Below are positions 647-6,722 of a stretch of DNA of 62,020 nt, in pieces. Each line of letters begins with the position of its first letter. Position 1 is the first letter of the stretch. The notes under the pieces are model-generated. The model was not told where the DNA came from. It saw nothing but the letters and a program-made list of their open reading frames with translations, and did no database searches. Source of the stretch: Lachnospiraceae bacterium (lineage in GTDB: Bacteria; Bacillota; Clostridia; Lachnospirales; Lachnospiraceae); contig JAFVXW010000047.1 of assembly GCA_017500935.1 (NCBI GenBank), positions 1-62,020 on the forward strand, written 5' to 3'. Position numbers and translations under genes: made by a program.

Positions 647-1444
647 ATGAGTGAAATAGTCAGCCAAAACGAAAGGGAAATGTATAAATTTCGTCTGGTG
701 ACCCGTTTGGGAGAAACCATGCTGAGAAATGGCAGCGAGATTTTTCGCGCGGACGAGGCAATGCATTATGCCGCAGATGCGTTTGGCTTGCAGGATTTTT
801 GTTCTTATGTGATCGCAAACGGAATGTTTTCCTCCTTTTGTTCGGGAACACAGATGTATTCCTGCAAAATTCTGAGCCTTCCCCTTACTCCCATTGTCCT
901 GCAGAAAGTGGAAGCATTGAATGACCTTTCCAGAAAAATTTCCGCAGGCGGATGTACGCCGGAAGAGGTGGAAGCAACGCTGGATGAAATAGATAAAATG
1001 GGAACCGGAAGCAGCTGGAAGACAATCCTGGCTGCTGCCTGTGGTGCTGCGTGCTTTTCCTGTTTGTTCAAAGGAAGTATTACGGATGGAATTGGTGCGT
1101 TTATTTCCGGTTTTGTTTTGGAATTGTTTTTGTTATATCCCTGTGCCAGATGGAAACTGCCCAAGATTATGGCGAATATTGCTGGAGCGGCTGTGGCAGC
1201 TGTTGTGTGCTGCCTGCTGTTTGCATTGGGATTGGGAGACAACCTGGATCTGATGATGATAGGACCGGTTTTTGTGATGACTCCCGGAGTTCTTTTGACC
1301 AATGCAATCCGGCATTTTATGGAAAATGACTATCTTTCCGGTTTACTGCGCCTGATGGATGCAATACTGGTTGCAGGCGCGATCGCGATAGGAGTAGGAT
1401 CGGTGATGCGCATTTGGTTTCTTGTGTCAGGGGGAATTTTGTAA
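647..1444 (+). CDS. Threonine/serine exporter family protein, large subunit (ThrE N-terminal type)
   Basis: The 265-residue protein matches the ThrE N-terminal family (YjjP type). A soluble N-terminal part of about 110 residues carries the typical T-R-L-G-E-T-M-L-R-N-G-S-E-I start, and about five hydrophobic segments follow from residue 125. These proteins are thought to form, with a small partner, an inner-membrane exporter of threonine and serine or, in some bacteria, of dicarboxylates. The next gene starts at the stop codon (TAATG overlap) and encodes that partner. The start at 647 has only a weak Shine-Dalgarno. An ATG at 680 preceded by AGGGA is a plausible alternative that keeps the whole family motif. 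The substrate cannot be told from sequence. Confidence 0.85.
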   Translation: MSEIVSQNEREMYKFRLVTRLGETMLRNGSEIFRADEAMHYAADAFGLQDFCSYVIANGMFSSFCSGTQMYSCKILSLPLTPIVLQKVEALNDLSRKISAGGCTPEEVEATLDEIDKMGTGSSWKTILAAACGAACFSCLFKGSITDGIGAFISGFVLELFLLYPCARWKLPKIMANIAGAAVAAVVCCLLFALGLGDNLDLMMIGPVFVMTPGVLLTNAIRHFMENDYLSGLLRLMDAILVAGAIAIGVGSVMRIWFLVSGGIL

Positions 1445-1911
1445 TGGAAGCACTGTTTCAGATATTAATGGCTTTAGGGGGAACCATGGCTTTTTCCGTG
1501 TTGTTTGGAGCTTCCCCAAGGCATTATTTAAGATGTGGTTTGGTGGGGGCTTTTGGTTGGAGCATCTATCTGTTGGTTAAGGCTCTGATCGCAAGCGAGA
1601 TGATCGCCATTTTAATAGCCTCTGCTTTATTAACTGCATTATCCAGACGGTTGTCTGTTTGGGAAAAAGCACCTACTATTATTTTTCTTGTCACCGGAAT
1701 TTTTCCGCTGGTTCCGGGAGCCTCCATTTTCTATACTGCCTATTATTTGTTTCAGGGAAATCAGGCATTGGCCCTGACTTATGGCTTGGCAGCTATGAAG
1801 ACATCCATTGCAATTGCACTGGGGATTGGATTCAGTTACTCTATTCCGGCAAAATATTACGGTTGGAAAAGAAATCCGGAAATCTGGAATGAACAAAACC
1901 ATAGGTTATAA
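1444..1911 (+). CDS. Threonine/serine exporter family protein, small subunit (ThrE_2 type)
   Basis: The 155-residue protein has four to five hydrophobic helices and the conserved L-F-G-A-S-P-R-H-Y and L-V-P-G-A-S-I-F-Y motifs of the ThrE C-terminal/YjjB family. Its ATG overlaps the last base of the upstream stop codon, so translation is almost certainly coupled. An earlier in-frame start exists at 1414 but lies inside the preceding gene and would add non-family residues, so 1444 is preferred. Together the two genes give the split form of the ThrE exporter common in Firmicutes. A hairpin just after the stop probably ends the transcript. Confidence 0.85.
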   Translation: MEALFQILMALGGTMAFSVLFGASPRHYLRCGLVGAFGWSIYLLVKALIASEMIAILIASALLTALSRRLSVWEKAPTIIFLVTGIFPLVPGASIFYTAYYLFQGNQALALTYGLAAMKTSIAIALGIGFSYSIPAKYYGWKRNPEIWNEQNHRL

Positions 1912-1980: not shown

Positions 1981-2808
1981 TCAACACCTGACTTCCTTCG
2001 TAATCAGATCACTCTTTTCCGCCGCAAAGCCGCGGGCTTTCAGCGCGGCTTCCAGCTTTTCATTTTCGATCGCATAAGTACAGGAAACTTTTTTCAGGCC
2101 TTGGGCTTTTGCATAATTGATTGCAAAATCGATGCACTTGTCATAATCGCCCCCCATCAATGCAATATGCAGTGTTACCTGGTGTTGAAAGCGGGCGCCG
2201 CAAACGATGAAGCTTCCGCTCTCCTTGTCTTCAAACACTTTGCCCTCTATCGCAAACTGCTTTACATTGGCTTCGTTGATATGATAAAAAGTACGGTTAA
2301 AAGTCATGTAGTCGTTGTACTCCTGTTTCATCGGCAGAATCAGTTCAACCGCCCGCTGCCAGCCGATATGTACAAACCCATGCGAATCTCCGCCTTCGGG
2401 ATCTGTCAGGTGATAACCGCGGTGCTGCGCCACAGTTTTAAGGCCAAAAGCTTCTGCCAGAGCACTGCTGGCCACGTTGTTTACACCGGTAAACATGGCC
2501 ATGGACGGGCAGTTATATTTCTGTGCCAGTTCAACGTATTTTTTATAAATTTCTCTGCCGACGCCTTTGCGCTGATATTCAGGTGTCACACGCAGTGTTT
2601 CCAGCCAGCCGCTGCCATCCGGCAGAACAGAAAACCGGCCGATTCCCACCATTTTTTCGCCATGGGAAACGCAGACCAGACCGCCGTCCAGACTGTTGAA
2701 ATAATGCCAGGCATCTTCCAGATAAACATAGTCACCCATGGTTTCTTTTTCTACCCGCACAGCTTCTGCCATATCTTCGTAAGCTGCAAGCTTTACTGTA
2801 AAATCCAT
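1981..2808 (-). CDS. GNAT family N-acetyltransferase
   Basis: The 275-residue protein has an N-terminal GNAT domain with the acetyl-CoA loop R-V-T-P-E-Y-Q-R-K-G-V-G-R-E at about residues 75-88, followed by a second domain of about 130 residues that looks like a degenerate GNAT repeat. Such enzymes move an acetyl group from acetyl-CoA to an amine; the substrate is unknown. I chose the ATG at 2808 because AGAGGGA lies 7 bases before it. An ATG two codons upstream abuts that site, and the longer frame to 2832 has no ribosome binding site. It lies between the exporter pair (convergent) and a decayed phosphoesterase. Confidence 0.8.
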   Translation of the reverse strand: MDFTVKLAAYEDMAEAVRVEKETMGDYVYLEDAWHYFNSLDGGLVCVSHGEKMVGIGRFSVLPDGSGWLETLRVTPEYQRKGVGREIYKKYVELAQKYNCPSMAMFTGVNNVASSALAEAFGLKTVAQHRGYHLTDPEGGDSHGFVHIGWQRAVELILPMKQEYNDYMTFNRTFYHINEANVKQFAIEGKVFEDKESGSFIVCGARFQHQVTLHIALMGGDYDKCIDFAINYAKAQGLKKVSCTYAIENEKLEAALKARGFAAEKSDLITKEVRC

Positions 2809-2885
2809 AATCATTCCCTCTGATTTCTGCACAAATATATTTGATCACACCATATGTGATCTGCGTGTGACTTTCATTCATTATA

Positions 2886-3262
2886 TCACAAAATCCTGAT
2901 GATCTGTTCCCAAAGCATATCTCTTCCGCATTTACATTCCGGTTATCATGATAATGTCCAAAGAACCATTTCTTAAAATTTACATTCTGCCGAATTTCTT
3001 CCAGATAGTTTGTCAGCAAATCCGGTTTATACATTCCACTGCTGATCCGTGCAGCTGTACTGGAAGATGCACAGTGAGTCACAATAAAATCCACCTCATT
3101 TTTATATTTCAGAAGATTCTTCCATCCTTCCTCCATTTCTTCTGACGGTAATTCTTCTTTCCACCATTCCAATTTTCAACCGGATAGGAATATAAACGGT
3201 CAAAATTTTCATGATTTCCATCTAAAAATAATGTGGTAAACGGCCTGCAATCCAGCAATTAT
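2886..3262 (-). pseudogene. Calcineurin-like metallophosphoesterase, decayed
   Basis: Three pieces of one phosphoesterase lie in different frames. The first (about 3175-3262) reads R-P-F-T-T-L-F-L-D-G-N-H-E-N-F-D, with the metal-binding GNHE motif. The second (from TTG at 3172) reads W-W-K-E-E-L-P and continues through I-V-T-H-C and the G-H-Y-H motif. The third, after a one-base slip, ends M-L-W-E-Q-I-I-R-I-L and stops at 2886. The first part lacks the usual N-terminal D-x-H-G, and about 50-60 residues normally lying between the first two pieces are missing. This is a dead gene with an internal deletion and frameshifts. Confidence 0.8.
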
Positions 3263-3526
3263 ACCTATAATATAATTTTACTTTTCTATGTTAGCATTCT
3301 CTCTTTGACACAAAAGCACAATAAAAAGCCCCCTCCAATCATTTCCAAACACTTCCAGAAATAATTGTAAGGGAGCCTTCTTTATTTGTCATTGAACTTG
3401 CAGCATAAAAGTTTTGCGCCATTATGCGATGCGATATCCATAATTTTTCTTAAATTTATGCCTGTTTTCTTTTTATCGATTACAGGAAACATAAAACACC
3501 TCCAAAAATCCAAGAAAGAGCTTATC
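3263..3526. other. AT-rich intergenic region
   Basis: There is no credible gene here. C-rich and G-rich short blocks near 3330-3345 and 3370-3378 could form a weak imperfect hairpin past the end of the kinase operon, but pairing is poor. Short ORFs in this gap have no ribosome binding site or family resemblance. Confidence 0.4.
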
Positions 3527-4420
3527 CTATTCCAACGCTCTTACCCTCCTGTAATAAGTAGATTTTGACCCAATTTTTGTCCTTTTCATCGCTTCCTCTA
3601 CTGTAATCAAGCCCTCTTTCAATTCCTGATTCACCTGACGAAGCACTTTTTCATCCACTTCTATCGGTTTTCTGCCACTATACTTTCCCTTTTTCTTAGC
3701 TTCTTCAATACCCTCCCGTCTGCTAGCCGCATGTTCACGCCTTGTAATCATCCTTTGCGTTACCAGTATCGGAACCATGGCAGCTCGTGTCGCCGAATCC
3801 ACTAACACCTGGCCATTTTGACTGATAACATCTACGCCATTTATCACAATTGTAAAAATCCCATCCATAAATCCCGCAGCAGTATCTCCTATCGCTTCCA
3901 CGGATTCCACAATAATCTTATCTCCATATTGTAATACAGATAACATTCCGGGAGCAAATTCCTCCACAATTTGTGACCCTCTTTTTCTTTCTACAATCAG
4001 ATTATCATTGGCAGCCCGCATCGTTGTTCTAAGAAGCCATTCAAAACGATCATAATAATCCATACCAACCGATTCCAGTATTTCCCATAAATCCTCTCGA
4101 TTTTCAGATGGTGTTCTCTCTGCAATAAATGTTGGAATATAGTTCACCCTATAATACCGCTCTAATCGAAGATCCATGTCAATTCCCGGTATTCCCTGGA
4201 AGACACTTGCAGGAAGCCCATCAATAATCTCCCAATACGGACTTATCACATACTGAAAATTTTCTTCATCAAATTCCTGATAATCGATCTGAGCTACACT
4301 AATTTTTTCACCACTCTTCATAACTGCCTTAATGATTCCAGAGCTTACATAGGAAGGTATTCCTGCCAGCGGTGTCGTTATTTTATTTCTAGGCTGCCAA
4401 TCTCTGACTACTGCCCGCAT
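3527..4420 (-). CDS. Unrecognised protein with serine-recombinase-like C-terminal hinge and HTH
   Basis: This 297-residue protein starts at 4420 with AGGAGG 8 bases upstream; the kinase stop codon TAG is part of that site. Residues 1-220 match no family I recognise. From about 228 the sequence R-R-E-G-I-E-E-A-K-K-K-G-K-Y-S-G-R-K-P-I, then a helix-turn-helix ending K-S-T-Y-Y-R-R, closely resembles the hinge and DNA-binding tail of Tn3/Hin-type resolvases. The catalytic resolvase domain (Y-x-R-V-S-T) is absent, so it should bind DNA but not recombine it by that mechanism. It is the second gene of an operon with a HipA/CtkA-like kinase. By analogy with HipA systems it may be an antitoxin, a repressor or the kinase target; this is inference. 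Confidence 0.7.
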   Translation of the reverse strand: MRAVVRDWQPRNKITTPLAGIPSYVSSGIIKAVMKSGEKISVAQIDYQEFDEENFQYVISPYWEIIDGLPASVFQGIPGIDMDLRLERYYRVNYIPTFIAERTPSENREDLWEILESVGMDYYDRFEWLLRTTMRAANDNLIVERKRGSQIVEEFAPGMLSVLQYGDKIIVESVEAIGDTAAGFMDGIFTIVINGVDVISQNGQVLVDSATRAAMVPILVTQRMITRREHAASRREGIEEAKKKGKYSGRKPIEVDEKVLRQVNQELKEGLITVEEAMKRTKIGSKSTYYRRVRALE

Positions 4421-4432
4421 TTTCTTAACCTC

Positions 4433-5287
4433 CTATTTTGACATTAATTCATTATAAGATTTCAGCAATATTTTCTCATATCGCTGTTTAAGAATGGTTT
4501 TATAAAATTCTCTGCGCTTTTCACTAATATTTTCTACGGAATCAATCAATTTATGAATTTTATCAAAGTCAATTCTTTCAACAACCCTGATAAGTGCATT
4601 ATTACATTCTTCAAATGCCAGACTTGAAATAATTTCATAATATGAACTTTTCTTCCCCTTATACTTCACTTGTGATGTCGGGAATTTATAAATTCGCATA
4701 TCGATTTCTTCCTGATTTTCAAGGACAGCTGCTATCTTTTCGTCTGTATTTAACTGTGGAAATAAACTGGAACCGTTATCAAAAATAGGCGAAAGTCTAT
4801 ATTTGTTATCCTTTTTGATAAATCCCCAATTGCTTCCATGGCGGTCAAAATTAGCAATCAACGCGTCTATAACAAACATATCCCAAAACAAATCTATCGT
4901 TTGCTCTACATCTGTGAGTTTCACATTATCCTGGAGCATTTCAATAATATCTTCGTAGGAATACTGATATTTTTCTTTATCTTGTTCCAAAGAACTATCT
5001 CCAACGCCGTTAAACGGCACAAACACTTCATCTTCCCCAAGAAAGTCTTGTATTACCACAACATTTTCACCCTTATATATGCCTAAAAATGTTTCCTGCG
5101 TTTCGATTCCAAGTAAAGCAAAAATGTGACTTCCCAAATACTCTGATACATGGTTATAACGTAAACCTTCTCTGGAATTTTTCCGAAATTTAACCAAATA
5201 TGGCTTTTCATTTATAAGAATCGATTTTTTCCGTTCTGCTCCGGAGTAATATCTGTTTCCATCCGGATATCTTGAATAATCTCTCAT
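4433..5287 (-). CDS. HipA/CtkA-like protein kinase
   Basis: The 284-residue protein has the compact HipA/CtkA kinase core. A likely ATP-anchoring lysine is in L-V-K-F (about Lys33). The catalytic loop A-N-F-D-R-H-G-S-N-W has Asp148 and Asn153. The metal-binding P-I-F-D-N-G-S-S-L has Asp170. It lacks the N-terminal HipA domain of about 100 residues and is close in size to HipT and Helicobacter CtkA. Such kinases phosphorylate Ser/Thr on targets such as glutamyl- or tryptophanyl-tRNA synthetase and can cause growth arrest. The target here is unknown. ATG 5287 is chosen for its GAGGTG site. The frame could start up to three codons earlier, but there the site would lie inside the start. A strong promoter lies just upstream, and the partner gene follows after 12 bases. 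Confidence 0.85.
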   Translation of the reverse strand: MRDYSRYPDGNRYYSGAERKKSILINEKPYLVKFRKNSREGLRYNHVSEYLGSHIFALLGIETQETFLGIYKGENVVVIQDFLGEDEVFVPFNGVGDSSLEQDKEKYQYSYEDIIEMLQDNVKLTDVEQTIDLFWDMFVIDALIANFDRHGSNWGFIKKDNKYRLSPIFDNGSSLFPQLNTDEKIAAVLENQEEIDMRIYKFPTSQVKYKGKKSSYYEIISSLAFEECNNALIRVVERIDFDKIHKLIDSVENISEKRREFYKTILKQRYEKILLKSYNELMSK

Positions 5288-5305
5288 AATCATCACCTCA
5301 TCTAT

Positions 5306-5334
5306 AGTATATTAACCGCCTCCCGTAGTGTCAA
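5306..5334 (-). promoter_or_regulatory. SigA-type promoter of the kinase operon
   Basis: On the minus strand TTGACA (5329-5334) and TATACT (5306-5311) are separated by exactly 17 bases, close to the ideal vegetative promoter. It ends 18 bases before the kinase start at 5287, so the leader is very short. Confidence 0.8.
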
Positions 5335-5361
5335 TAGGTTCTATTCTATTTTTGACACTCC
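5327..5361. promoter_or_regulatory. Inverted repeat overlapping the -35 (possible autoregulatory operator)
   Basis: AGTGTCAA (5327-5334) and TTGACACT (5354-5361) form a perfect 8-base inverted repeat with a 19-base centre. The inner arm covers the -35 box of the kinase promoter. An HTH protein encoded in the same operon could bind here; that link is inference. Confidence 0.5.
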
Positions 5362-5442
5362 TTTGTCTTTTATGCAATTCATATACAAAAACATAGTTTG
5401 TTCACCGTCTGACACAGAAAAAGTATAGAAATTTCACCATGC

Positions 5443-5487
5443 AAAAATCCAGCCAACCGCCTCCTTCATTCCGTTGACTGGATTTTC
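5443..5487 (-). terminator. Terminator of the serine hydrolase gene
   Basis: Two arms, 5443-5457 and 5473-5487, share the core ATCCAG/CTGGAT and pair over 13 of 14 positions. Read on the minus strand the stem is followed by TTTTTGC. It lies about 55 bases past the hydrolase stop codon. Confidence 0.75.
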
Positions 5488-5540
5488 TCTACTGCTCAAA
5501 CAAGCTATACTTGAATTCGTCCCCTCTACCCCAAGGCTGT

Positions 5541-6722
5541 CTAATCCAGACACCCATAAACCACATTTTTCAGCCGCGGATGATAATACTCCGCATCCGG
5601 GTTCAAAAGATGCTGTGCGTAGAAAAATGACAATCCGATCGCAGGGTCCACAACAGCCATAGAACCGGCTGCGCCGTCCCATCCAAACTGTCCGAGACTG
5701 CCTGTCGTACCGCTGAGTACCGGATCAATATGGGTGTAAACGCCAAGACCATAGCCGCAGCCGCGAAGCTGTCCCCAGCAAAAATCCGGTCTCTGGTCAG
5801 ATGTCAGACGGTCTGTACGCATCAGGTCAATCGTATATCCGGACAAAATCTTCTCACCGGTTGCTCCGACTCCACGGTTTGCCAGTGCCGCCAGCAGCTT
5901 CACATAATCTGCAGTTGTCGTGATGATTCCGGCACCGCCGCTGTCGTATTCTTCGCCTAAAATGTGGGACACACCTTTACCGTAGTTTACAAAACGGTCT
6001 CTTTTTACCCTGCCGCCCGTTTGCAGCTGCTCCCGTTCGATTTCTTCCTCCGGAATCGGCCGACGCACATACTGACTGGCCATCTTTCCCAACACCTCCG
6101 GTGTGTGGTGGAAAACACAGCTCTCCATCTTCAAAGGATCAAAAATATTTTCTTTTACATAATCCCGGAATTTCTTCCCGGTTATCACTTCGATCACAGC
6201 CGCCAGGACATCATGACAAAGGCTGTACTGCCAATGTGCACCCGGTTCAAAAGAAAGCGGATCGGATGCCAGACAGCGGATTGCCTGCAAGGTATTCATC
6301 TTTCCGCCGGTCAGCTGACGCGCTTTATTAAGACCTTCCGATTCCAGATCATAATGCAGCCCCGCCTTCATGGAAAACAGATCGCCGATCGTGATCGCAT
6401 TTTTTGCTTTTACCAGCTCTCCGTTCTCTGTTTTTACATACATTTCTTTATATTCCGGGATAAAATCATACAAAGGATCTGACAGCAGAAAATACCCTTT
6501 TTCCAGAAGCTGCACGCCCGCTGTCACAGTCGCGACCTTGGAACAGGAATAGATATTGAACATTTCCTCACCGGTGAGCGGCGTTTTCGTCTCCAGATCA
6601 GCATAACCGCTGGCATAGGAAAAAACCTGCTGCCCTCCCAGATAAACCGAAATTGCATGTCCCGGCGTACGCTGCTGCTGGGCCTCCTCATCCATAAACC
6701 GTTTTAAGTTTGTAAAATCCAT
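5541..6722 (-). CDS. Beta-lactamase-related serine hydrolase (class C / esterase type)
   Basis: The 393-residue protein belongs to the PF00144 group, which includes class C beta-lactamases, DD-peptidases and EstB-like esterases. The nucleophile motif S-x-x-K is Ser59-Cys-Ser-Lys62. A second catalytic tyrosine is probably Tyr166, but the usual Y-x-N reads Y-S-L. Near the C-terminus, W-D-G-A-A-G-S stands where lactamases have the K/H-x-G strand; W-G-G-A-A-G-like versions are common in esterases. There is no signal peptide, so the enzyme is probably cytoplasmic and hydrolyses a small ester or amide rather than cell-wall peptides. ATG 6722 has GAGGGA upstream. It is a single-gene unit with its own terminator, divergent from the next gene. 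Confidence 0.8.
   Translation of the reverse strand: MDFTNLKRFMDEEAQQQRTPGHAISVYLGGQQVFSYASGYADLETKTPLTGEEMFNIYSCSKVATVTAGVQLLEKGYFLLSDPLYDFIPEYKEMYVKTENGELVKAKNAITIGDLFSMKAGLHYDLESEGLNKARQLTGGKMNTLQAIRCLASDPLSFEPGAHWQYSLCHDVLAAVIEVITGKKFRDYVKENIFDPLKMESCVFHHTPEVLGKMASQYVRRPIPEEEIEREQLQTGGRVKRDRFVNYGKGVSHILGEEYDSGGAGIITTTADYVKLLAALANRGVGATGEKILSGYTIDLMRTDRLTSDQRPDFCWGQLRGCGYGLGVYTHIDPVLSGTTGSLGQFGWDGAAGSMAVVDPAIGLSFFYAQHLLNPDAEYYHPRLKNVVYGCLD

Follow-up and report, generated by a model that had tools for sequence, protein, structure and literature searches.

We found that the DNA window analysed here, a stretch of 62,020 nt from contig JAFVXW010000047.1 of a Lachnospiraceae bacterium of the gut (GCA_017500935.1, genome of 3.56 Mb), encodes on its minus strand a two-gene module. 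It is probably a hipMP-type operon of a type II toxin-antitoxin system, with a kinase as toxin and a partner acting as a two-function antitoxin (we put this at roughly 0.78). The first gene encodes a HipA/CtkA-like Ser/Thr kinase, a putative toxin of the HipM type (4433..5296, minus strand; 284 amino acids (aa) from an ATG at 5287). It is followed after 12 bp by the gene for a 297-aa partner (3527..4420, minus strand), a putative antitoxin and autorepressor of the HipP type. Judging from its relatives, the module is real and conserved.

The kinase matched HipA_C as its only Pfam family (E-value 3.9e-17), with the core motifs in place, and among solved structures it was closest to CtkA (3akj, 9e-50), followed by Legionella HipT (8ezr_B, 6.3e-6). 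An earlier note on this DNA had described a HipA/CtkA-like kinase in tight operon with its partner, with Asp148, Asn153 and Asp170 in place. All of this was borne out, the residues being counted from the ATG at 5287 (codons within 4433-5287). The catalytic motifs were kept in 16 of the 17 kinases of loci with the fusion partner, the exception being the degenerate kinase of locus L005. In the window, no gene for a helix-turn-helix (HTH) protein immediately precedes that of the kinase.

For the N-terminal part of the partner, residues 25-146 (3983..4348, minus strand) showed the HipS fold in a structural alignment by Foldseek's own ranking, and were also connected to HipS by sequence via intermediate relatives. 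A match to the PADLOC model PDC-M03B was restricted to residues 84-142 (3.8e-5). By its predicted fold the region of residues 1-147 is a recognisable HipS-like domain, whose role would be directly related to that of a Hip kinase. The earlier view that residues 1-220 were unrecognised was thus revised, with the resolvase part taking over from about residue 149.

This C-terminal part (residues 149-297; 3530..3976, minus strand) appears to be derived from a serine recombinase, as indicated by Pfam (Resolvase, 4e-5, residues 158-246), PHROG (DNA invertase, 1.9e-8, residues 158-294), the predicted fold and a match of the partner family profile to residues 54-179 of gamma-delta resolvase (1gdt, 1.1e-7). 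Like Tn3 and gamma-delta resolvases, it comprises the second half of the catalytic domain, a long helix (209-243) and a C-terminal, three-helix DNA-binding part (257-296). The resolvase-like tail noticed previously is therefore real and conserved, though it starts near residue 149 and not at 220, and, where the earlier note saw no catalytic domain, about half of that domain is present in degenerate form. A serine and arginines are the catalytic residues of serine recombinases. Seven free recombinases resembling the tail (L008, L010, L011, L012, L014, L030 and L031) kept the serine segment near the N-terminus as well as the arginine motif. Among the aligned fusions no counterpart of the serine segment was found, and at the place of the R..R motif the window partner has EAIGDT (residues 175-180; 3881..3898, minus strand). 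The first arginine was lost in 17/17 aligned fusions and the second in 15/17, being retained in L004 and L039. In these alignments the recombinase part of the partner has lost its catalytic parts. In a tree of the tails, eleven free recombinases were separated from all 17 fusions with a support of 0.987, which fits one capture.

Directly upstream of the kinase we found a 33-bp interrupted palindrome, AGTGTCAA-N17-TTGACACT (5327..5359, minus strand), as a putative operator. A promoter-like site TTGACA-17-TATACT (5306..5334, minus strand; 11/12 matches) has its -35 box inside the right palindrome arm; it was the best of five such sites in 3380-5480, where their number was below the shuffle mean of 7.4. 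The palindrome was expected 0.01 times in the window from shuffles, and at up to 3 mismatches it occurred once in the 3.56-Mb genome, as did a control pattern read backward. A counterpart of 32-34 bp, placed likewise with respect to the promoter, was present in all 17 fusion loci with upstream DNA. Its two arms agreed on average at 7.0 of 8 positions, compared with 2.2 when arms were shuffled and no more than 3.4 in any of 10,000 shuffles. There was no match to the operator in L006, L009 and L045, where the partners are without the resolvase part, and the exact pattern was absent from viral contigs. The palindrome on the promoter is a candidate operator, which suggests that the partner may bind DNA and regulate its own operon. 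Site I of Tn3 resolvase is 28 bp long and runs from TGTC to GACA (PMC4499144), and the window element has the same outer TGTC...GACA over 29 bp. This resemblance might point to a working recombinase switch, with the palindrome as the place of DNA cleavage or inversion. We rejected that explanation as extremely improbable, since the partner has neither the nucleophile segment nor the arginine motif and the genome has a single site. The partner also differs from Tn3 and gamma-delta resolvases in its fusion to a HipS-like domain and in a lone candidate site that lies over a promoter.

The arms and the recognition helix of the partner appear to vary together in some relatives. Both arms of L028 read ATTTGCAA (7/7 inner positions alike, 4/7 like the consensus), and its recognition helix is SIDKYYR, compared with S[KR]STFYR or similar elsewhere. 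L007 has the arms TGCATCAA and TGCGTCAA (6/7 alike) and the recognition helix SASTFFR. From these alignments, arms and helix change jointly in L028 and in part in L007. In L024, L004 and L022 the left arm had drifted and the right arm had not (5/7 alike).

After merging of duplicates, the family comprised 18 intact fusion loci, namely the window, L003, L004, L005, L007, L016-L024, L026, L028, L039 and L040. The merged copies were L001/L032/L046 with the window, L002/L036/L052 with L017, L037/L056 with L003, L038/L053 with L004, L042/L059 with L005, L015/L043/L057 with L007, L054 with L039, and L055 with L040. L021, whose contig starts inside the kinase, did not enter the counts of operators and pairs, and the decayed loci L025, L027 and L029 were counted apart. 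Full-length relatives of the partner were found at 44-87% identity and, across these 18 loci, with open frames down to about 32%; because the resolvase-like tail is conserved in full-length relatives, it is not a product of chance. Free recombinases of this type occur frequently, which would suit a chance or recent functionless gene fusion. Such a fusion is excluded by this conservation and by the matching operator, and we give it practically no weight. A kinase adjoined the partner upstream in 18/18 intact loci (that of L021 cut by the contig end, that of L005 with a degenerate active site), and did not do so in L025, L027 and L029, where the partner is broken or partial. The earlier note would have been refuted by a partner that mostly occurs without the kinase, which is not what these loci show. 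Over 136 pairs, the identity of the kinases also correlated with the identity of the HipS-like domains (r = 0.93) and with that of the tails (r = 0.90).

The decaying loci gave some indication of which member might be harmful. L005 has lost the catalytic residues of its kinase (2388-3236, minus strand; GNSSRSTYSWGY, FNNDE), with partner and operator still there. In L027 the operator stands directly before a frameshifted partner, and some 6 kb of upstream DNA contain no kinase. The partner of L025 is truncated, and this locus has neither kinase nor operator; L029 is a tail fragment. With a dead kinase in L005 and none in L027, this pattern leans towards the kinase as the harmful member, although such loci are few and a frameshift in a metagenome assembly may be an error. 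Another reading would have a signalling kinase with its regulator and no toxin, the HipS-like half forming a lid like N-subdomain 1 of HipA that aids or targets the kinase, and the resolvase half placing the pair on DNA. CtkA, the nearest solved kinase, speaks for it and is, to our knowledge, not a proven toxin of a toxin-antitoxin pair. HipS also corresponds to N-subdomain 1 of HipA, and active HipA kinases contain this subdomain (PMC8262856). The geometry of operon autoregulation and the decay pattern of L005 and L027, however, resemble a toxin-antitoxin pair, and we consider the signalling explanation quite doubtful.

In the toxin-antitoxin mechanism that we propose, the short kinase would be the toxin, and the HipS-like half of the partner would dock near its Gly-rich loop and hold it inactive. 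The resolvase-derived half, devoid of catalysis, would dimerise on the 33-bp palindrome over the -35 box and repress the operon. Upon loss or displacement of the partner the kinase would be freed and the operon derepressed. The partner would thereby unite two jobs that are split in hipBST between HipS and HipB. Docking is suggested by the fold, by analogy with HipS of E. coli, which blocks HipT near the Gly-rich loop (PMC10627512), and with HipS of Legionella, which shifts the P-loop (PMC9325769); repression of the operon by the partner is suggested by the operator. That the kinase is toxic and acts on a substrate, that the partner inhibits it, dimerises and binds DNA, and that there is any trigger are elements that we infer.

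Several observations weigh against this interpretation. In Pfam, the HipS-like domain of the window matched no family and no HipA N-terminal domain, and only one of the 16 rows of the domain alignment matched Couple_hipA, at 0.028. A profile search of PDB sequences with the same domain found no HipS and only two unrelated matches (E 0.46 and 0.47). Because neither search recovered HipS, the domain is identified through its fold and through intermediate sequences. The 17 operator loci do not count as independent proofs, given their relatedness and a search profile derived from the very elements it found. Furthermore, the frameshift in the L027 partner, if real, weakens the case for the partner as an antitoxin that is kept. 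Structure prediction, which the earlier note had proposed, gave a partner fold that was HipS-like and then resolvase-like; the one-chain model of kinase and partner was poor (predicted template modelling score 0.47) and speaks neither for nor against docking.

The gene arrangement itself already has a name. Gerdes, Baerentsen and Brodersen named Hip kinase families by gene context in 2021 (PMC8262856), among them hipMP, in which a short HipM kinase is followed downstream by a putative antitoxin HipP that is similar to gamma-delta resolvase and was postulated to be a DNA-binding autoregulator. That study distinguishes four short Hip kinase families of 279-321 aa that are without N-subdomain 1, places the HipM clade next to HipG, and in its conclusion once has HipJ in place of HipM. 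As in hipMP, the window kinase is short, has no N-subdomain 1, and is followed closely by a partner resembling gamma-delta resolvase, and by these features the module fits hipMP. The idea of a new toxin-antitoxin or defence-type form therefore held in that the module is probably a toxin-antitoxin pair, but not in that the form is new. The accessible text of PMC8262856 describes HipS-like domains for hipIN, hipJS and hipL, and for HipP it mentions no HipS-like domain, no lost catalytic residues and no operator; the window has the first two and a candidate operator. Among the sources available to us we found no earlier description of this domain make-up, the lost active site or the operator for hipMP. 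Later papers on the HipP/HipM family since 2021 were not found by title, in a search that left most subscription literature outside.

Comparison with other Hip systems showed both shared and deviating parts. The window kinase matched PDC-M03A (5.8e-33), and the N-terminus of the partner is HipS-like as in hipIN/PDC-M03. HipN ends in a HIRAN domain, whereas the window partner has the resolvase part in that place, resembling a resolvase by sequence and fold and giving no Pfam match to HIRAN. A HIRAN-type partner is encoded by L035 from a genome of the same genus (1135-1845, minus strand; PDC-M03B, 9.4e-100), so that both partner types coexist in one genus. Like hipBST, the module combines a core kinase with an antitoxin of the HipS fold, but it consists of two genes instead of three, in reversed order, with HipS and a DNA-binding part in one protein, and the latter is derived from a resolvase and not from HipB. 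HipAD (DS-6) pairs a HipA-type kinase with a partner carrying DUF3037 and DUF1829, and its protection against phage was measured (PMC13092281). It shares with the window module a kinase of the HipA type and a partner that does not resemble HipB and is predicted to contact both kinase and DNA, and it differs in the DUF3037 and DUF1829 of that partner.

HipAD and the PADLOC matches speak for an explanation in which the same parts serve mainly in phage defence, with infection displacing or degrading the partner, the kinase then stopping growth and the infection being aborted. The spread of the module, which was patchy, would agree with such a function. Counting the window's own genome where drawn, a first draw of the family gave matches in 14/299 genomes, some by the tail only. 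The HipS-like profile was found in 3/391 genomes of the class, in 2/13 of the genus, and in 10/397 of a second family draw, seven of these with the fusion and three with a tail-less partner. Still, PDC-M03 is itself only a candidate system, and a literature search for its name found nothing. Among five flanking ORFs of the window scanned with PADLOC there was no clear defence gene: four were without a match, and the fifth, by eye an ATPase of the ABC type, matched ATPase models (best mad3, 1.5e-29). Neither the HipS-like domain nor the kinase had a confirmed relative in viral contigs. The defence-type role suggested at first was thus not borne out by the neighbourhood, and we regard defence as the main function as possible but rather unlikely. 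The fusion was also not found in phage, plasmid and viral collections, which gave recombinase-tail matches only (2 plasmid and 3 phage records).

A kinase search in the second family draw returned 49 places in 45/397 genomes. Of the eight top-scoring loci, seven had the fusion partner and one (G179) a partner with the HipS-like domain only. At the other 22 of the 30 places examined no HipS-like partner was found downstream, and many had an upstream HTH protein; outside those 30 places, HipS-like partners were present at G111 and G695. In a tree of 41 kinases, which contained no HipM reference sequences, the fusion kinases grouped with that of L006 at a weak support of 51-54, and many nearby kinases are, like HipG, preceded by an HTH protein. 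Many other CtkA-like kinases of the family genomes (L060-L081) were preceded by an Xre-type HTH protein with a C-terminus like LPEYLQHDLDAYK...DCLWGELYGSIN...LRKKYL. In L063, L064, L074, L078, L080 and L081 there was only a protein of 67-95 aa of that C-terminal kind and no HTH, which is possibly a stand-alone antitoxin part.

Upstream of the free recombinase gene of L010 we found GTGTCAATAGG, which is the same as the right half of the window palindrome read from the outside inward. Among ten free recombinases (leaving out L013, a near copy of L012, and L083 with too little upstream DNA), the half-site scored 11/11 in L010 (0/400 shuffles) and 9 in L008 and L031 (P about 0.04). The other seven were unremarkable and nine lacked the exact GTGTCAATAGG, so we dropped the idea that free recombinases generally have this half-site. 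L010 also has TGTCAATAGGGTATAC and TATATATCCTATTGACACA in opposite orientation before its free serine recombinase (1247-1360), in a res-like layout. The partner could be imagined as a decoy sensor, with resolvase half-sites of mobile elements titrating the antitoxin off operator and kinase and so arming the toxin, which we consider very unlikely. An enrichment of such sites in viruses was rejected, as the extended half-site occurred in 46 stretches of viral contigs and the reversed pattern in 47; the window-specific half-site occurred 12 times there, a count without a control run.

The genes next to the module were mostly not common to the loci when the first 12 kb of the window and 12 other loci were compared. 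In the close pair L019 and L021 the gene that follows downstream is shared; it encodes about 281 aa and starts 16 nt past the partner (4411-5256 and 1626-2474, respectively), and the L019 copy had no match in Pfam or PADLOC. An upstream gene is common to L023 and L027 (51% over 176 aa). L023 also has ABC-type genes that are similar to a gene of the window. L027 also has a 401-aa ORF (4538-5743) just upstream of operator and partner that by eye is like a group II intron reverse transcriptase.

If the proposed mechanism is true, a family that was named from gene neighbourhoods would become a testable mechanism, with a kinase-blocking part, a DNA-binding part and the bases that are bound. An enzyme of mobile DNA would have been captured, would have lost its catalysis and would now serve an antitoxin as its repressor half. 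Relatives in which recognition helix and operator have changed together would represent a natural test of how resolvase-type DNA-binding parts select their sites.
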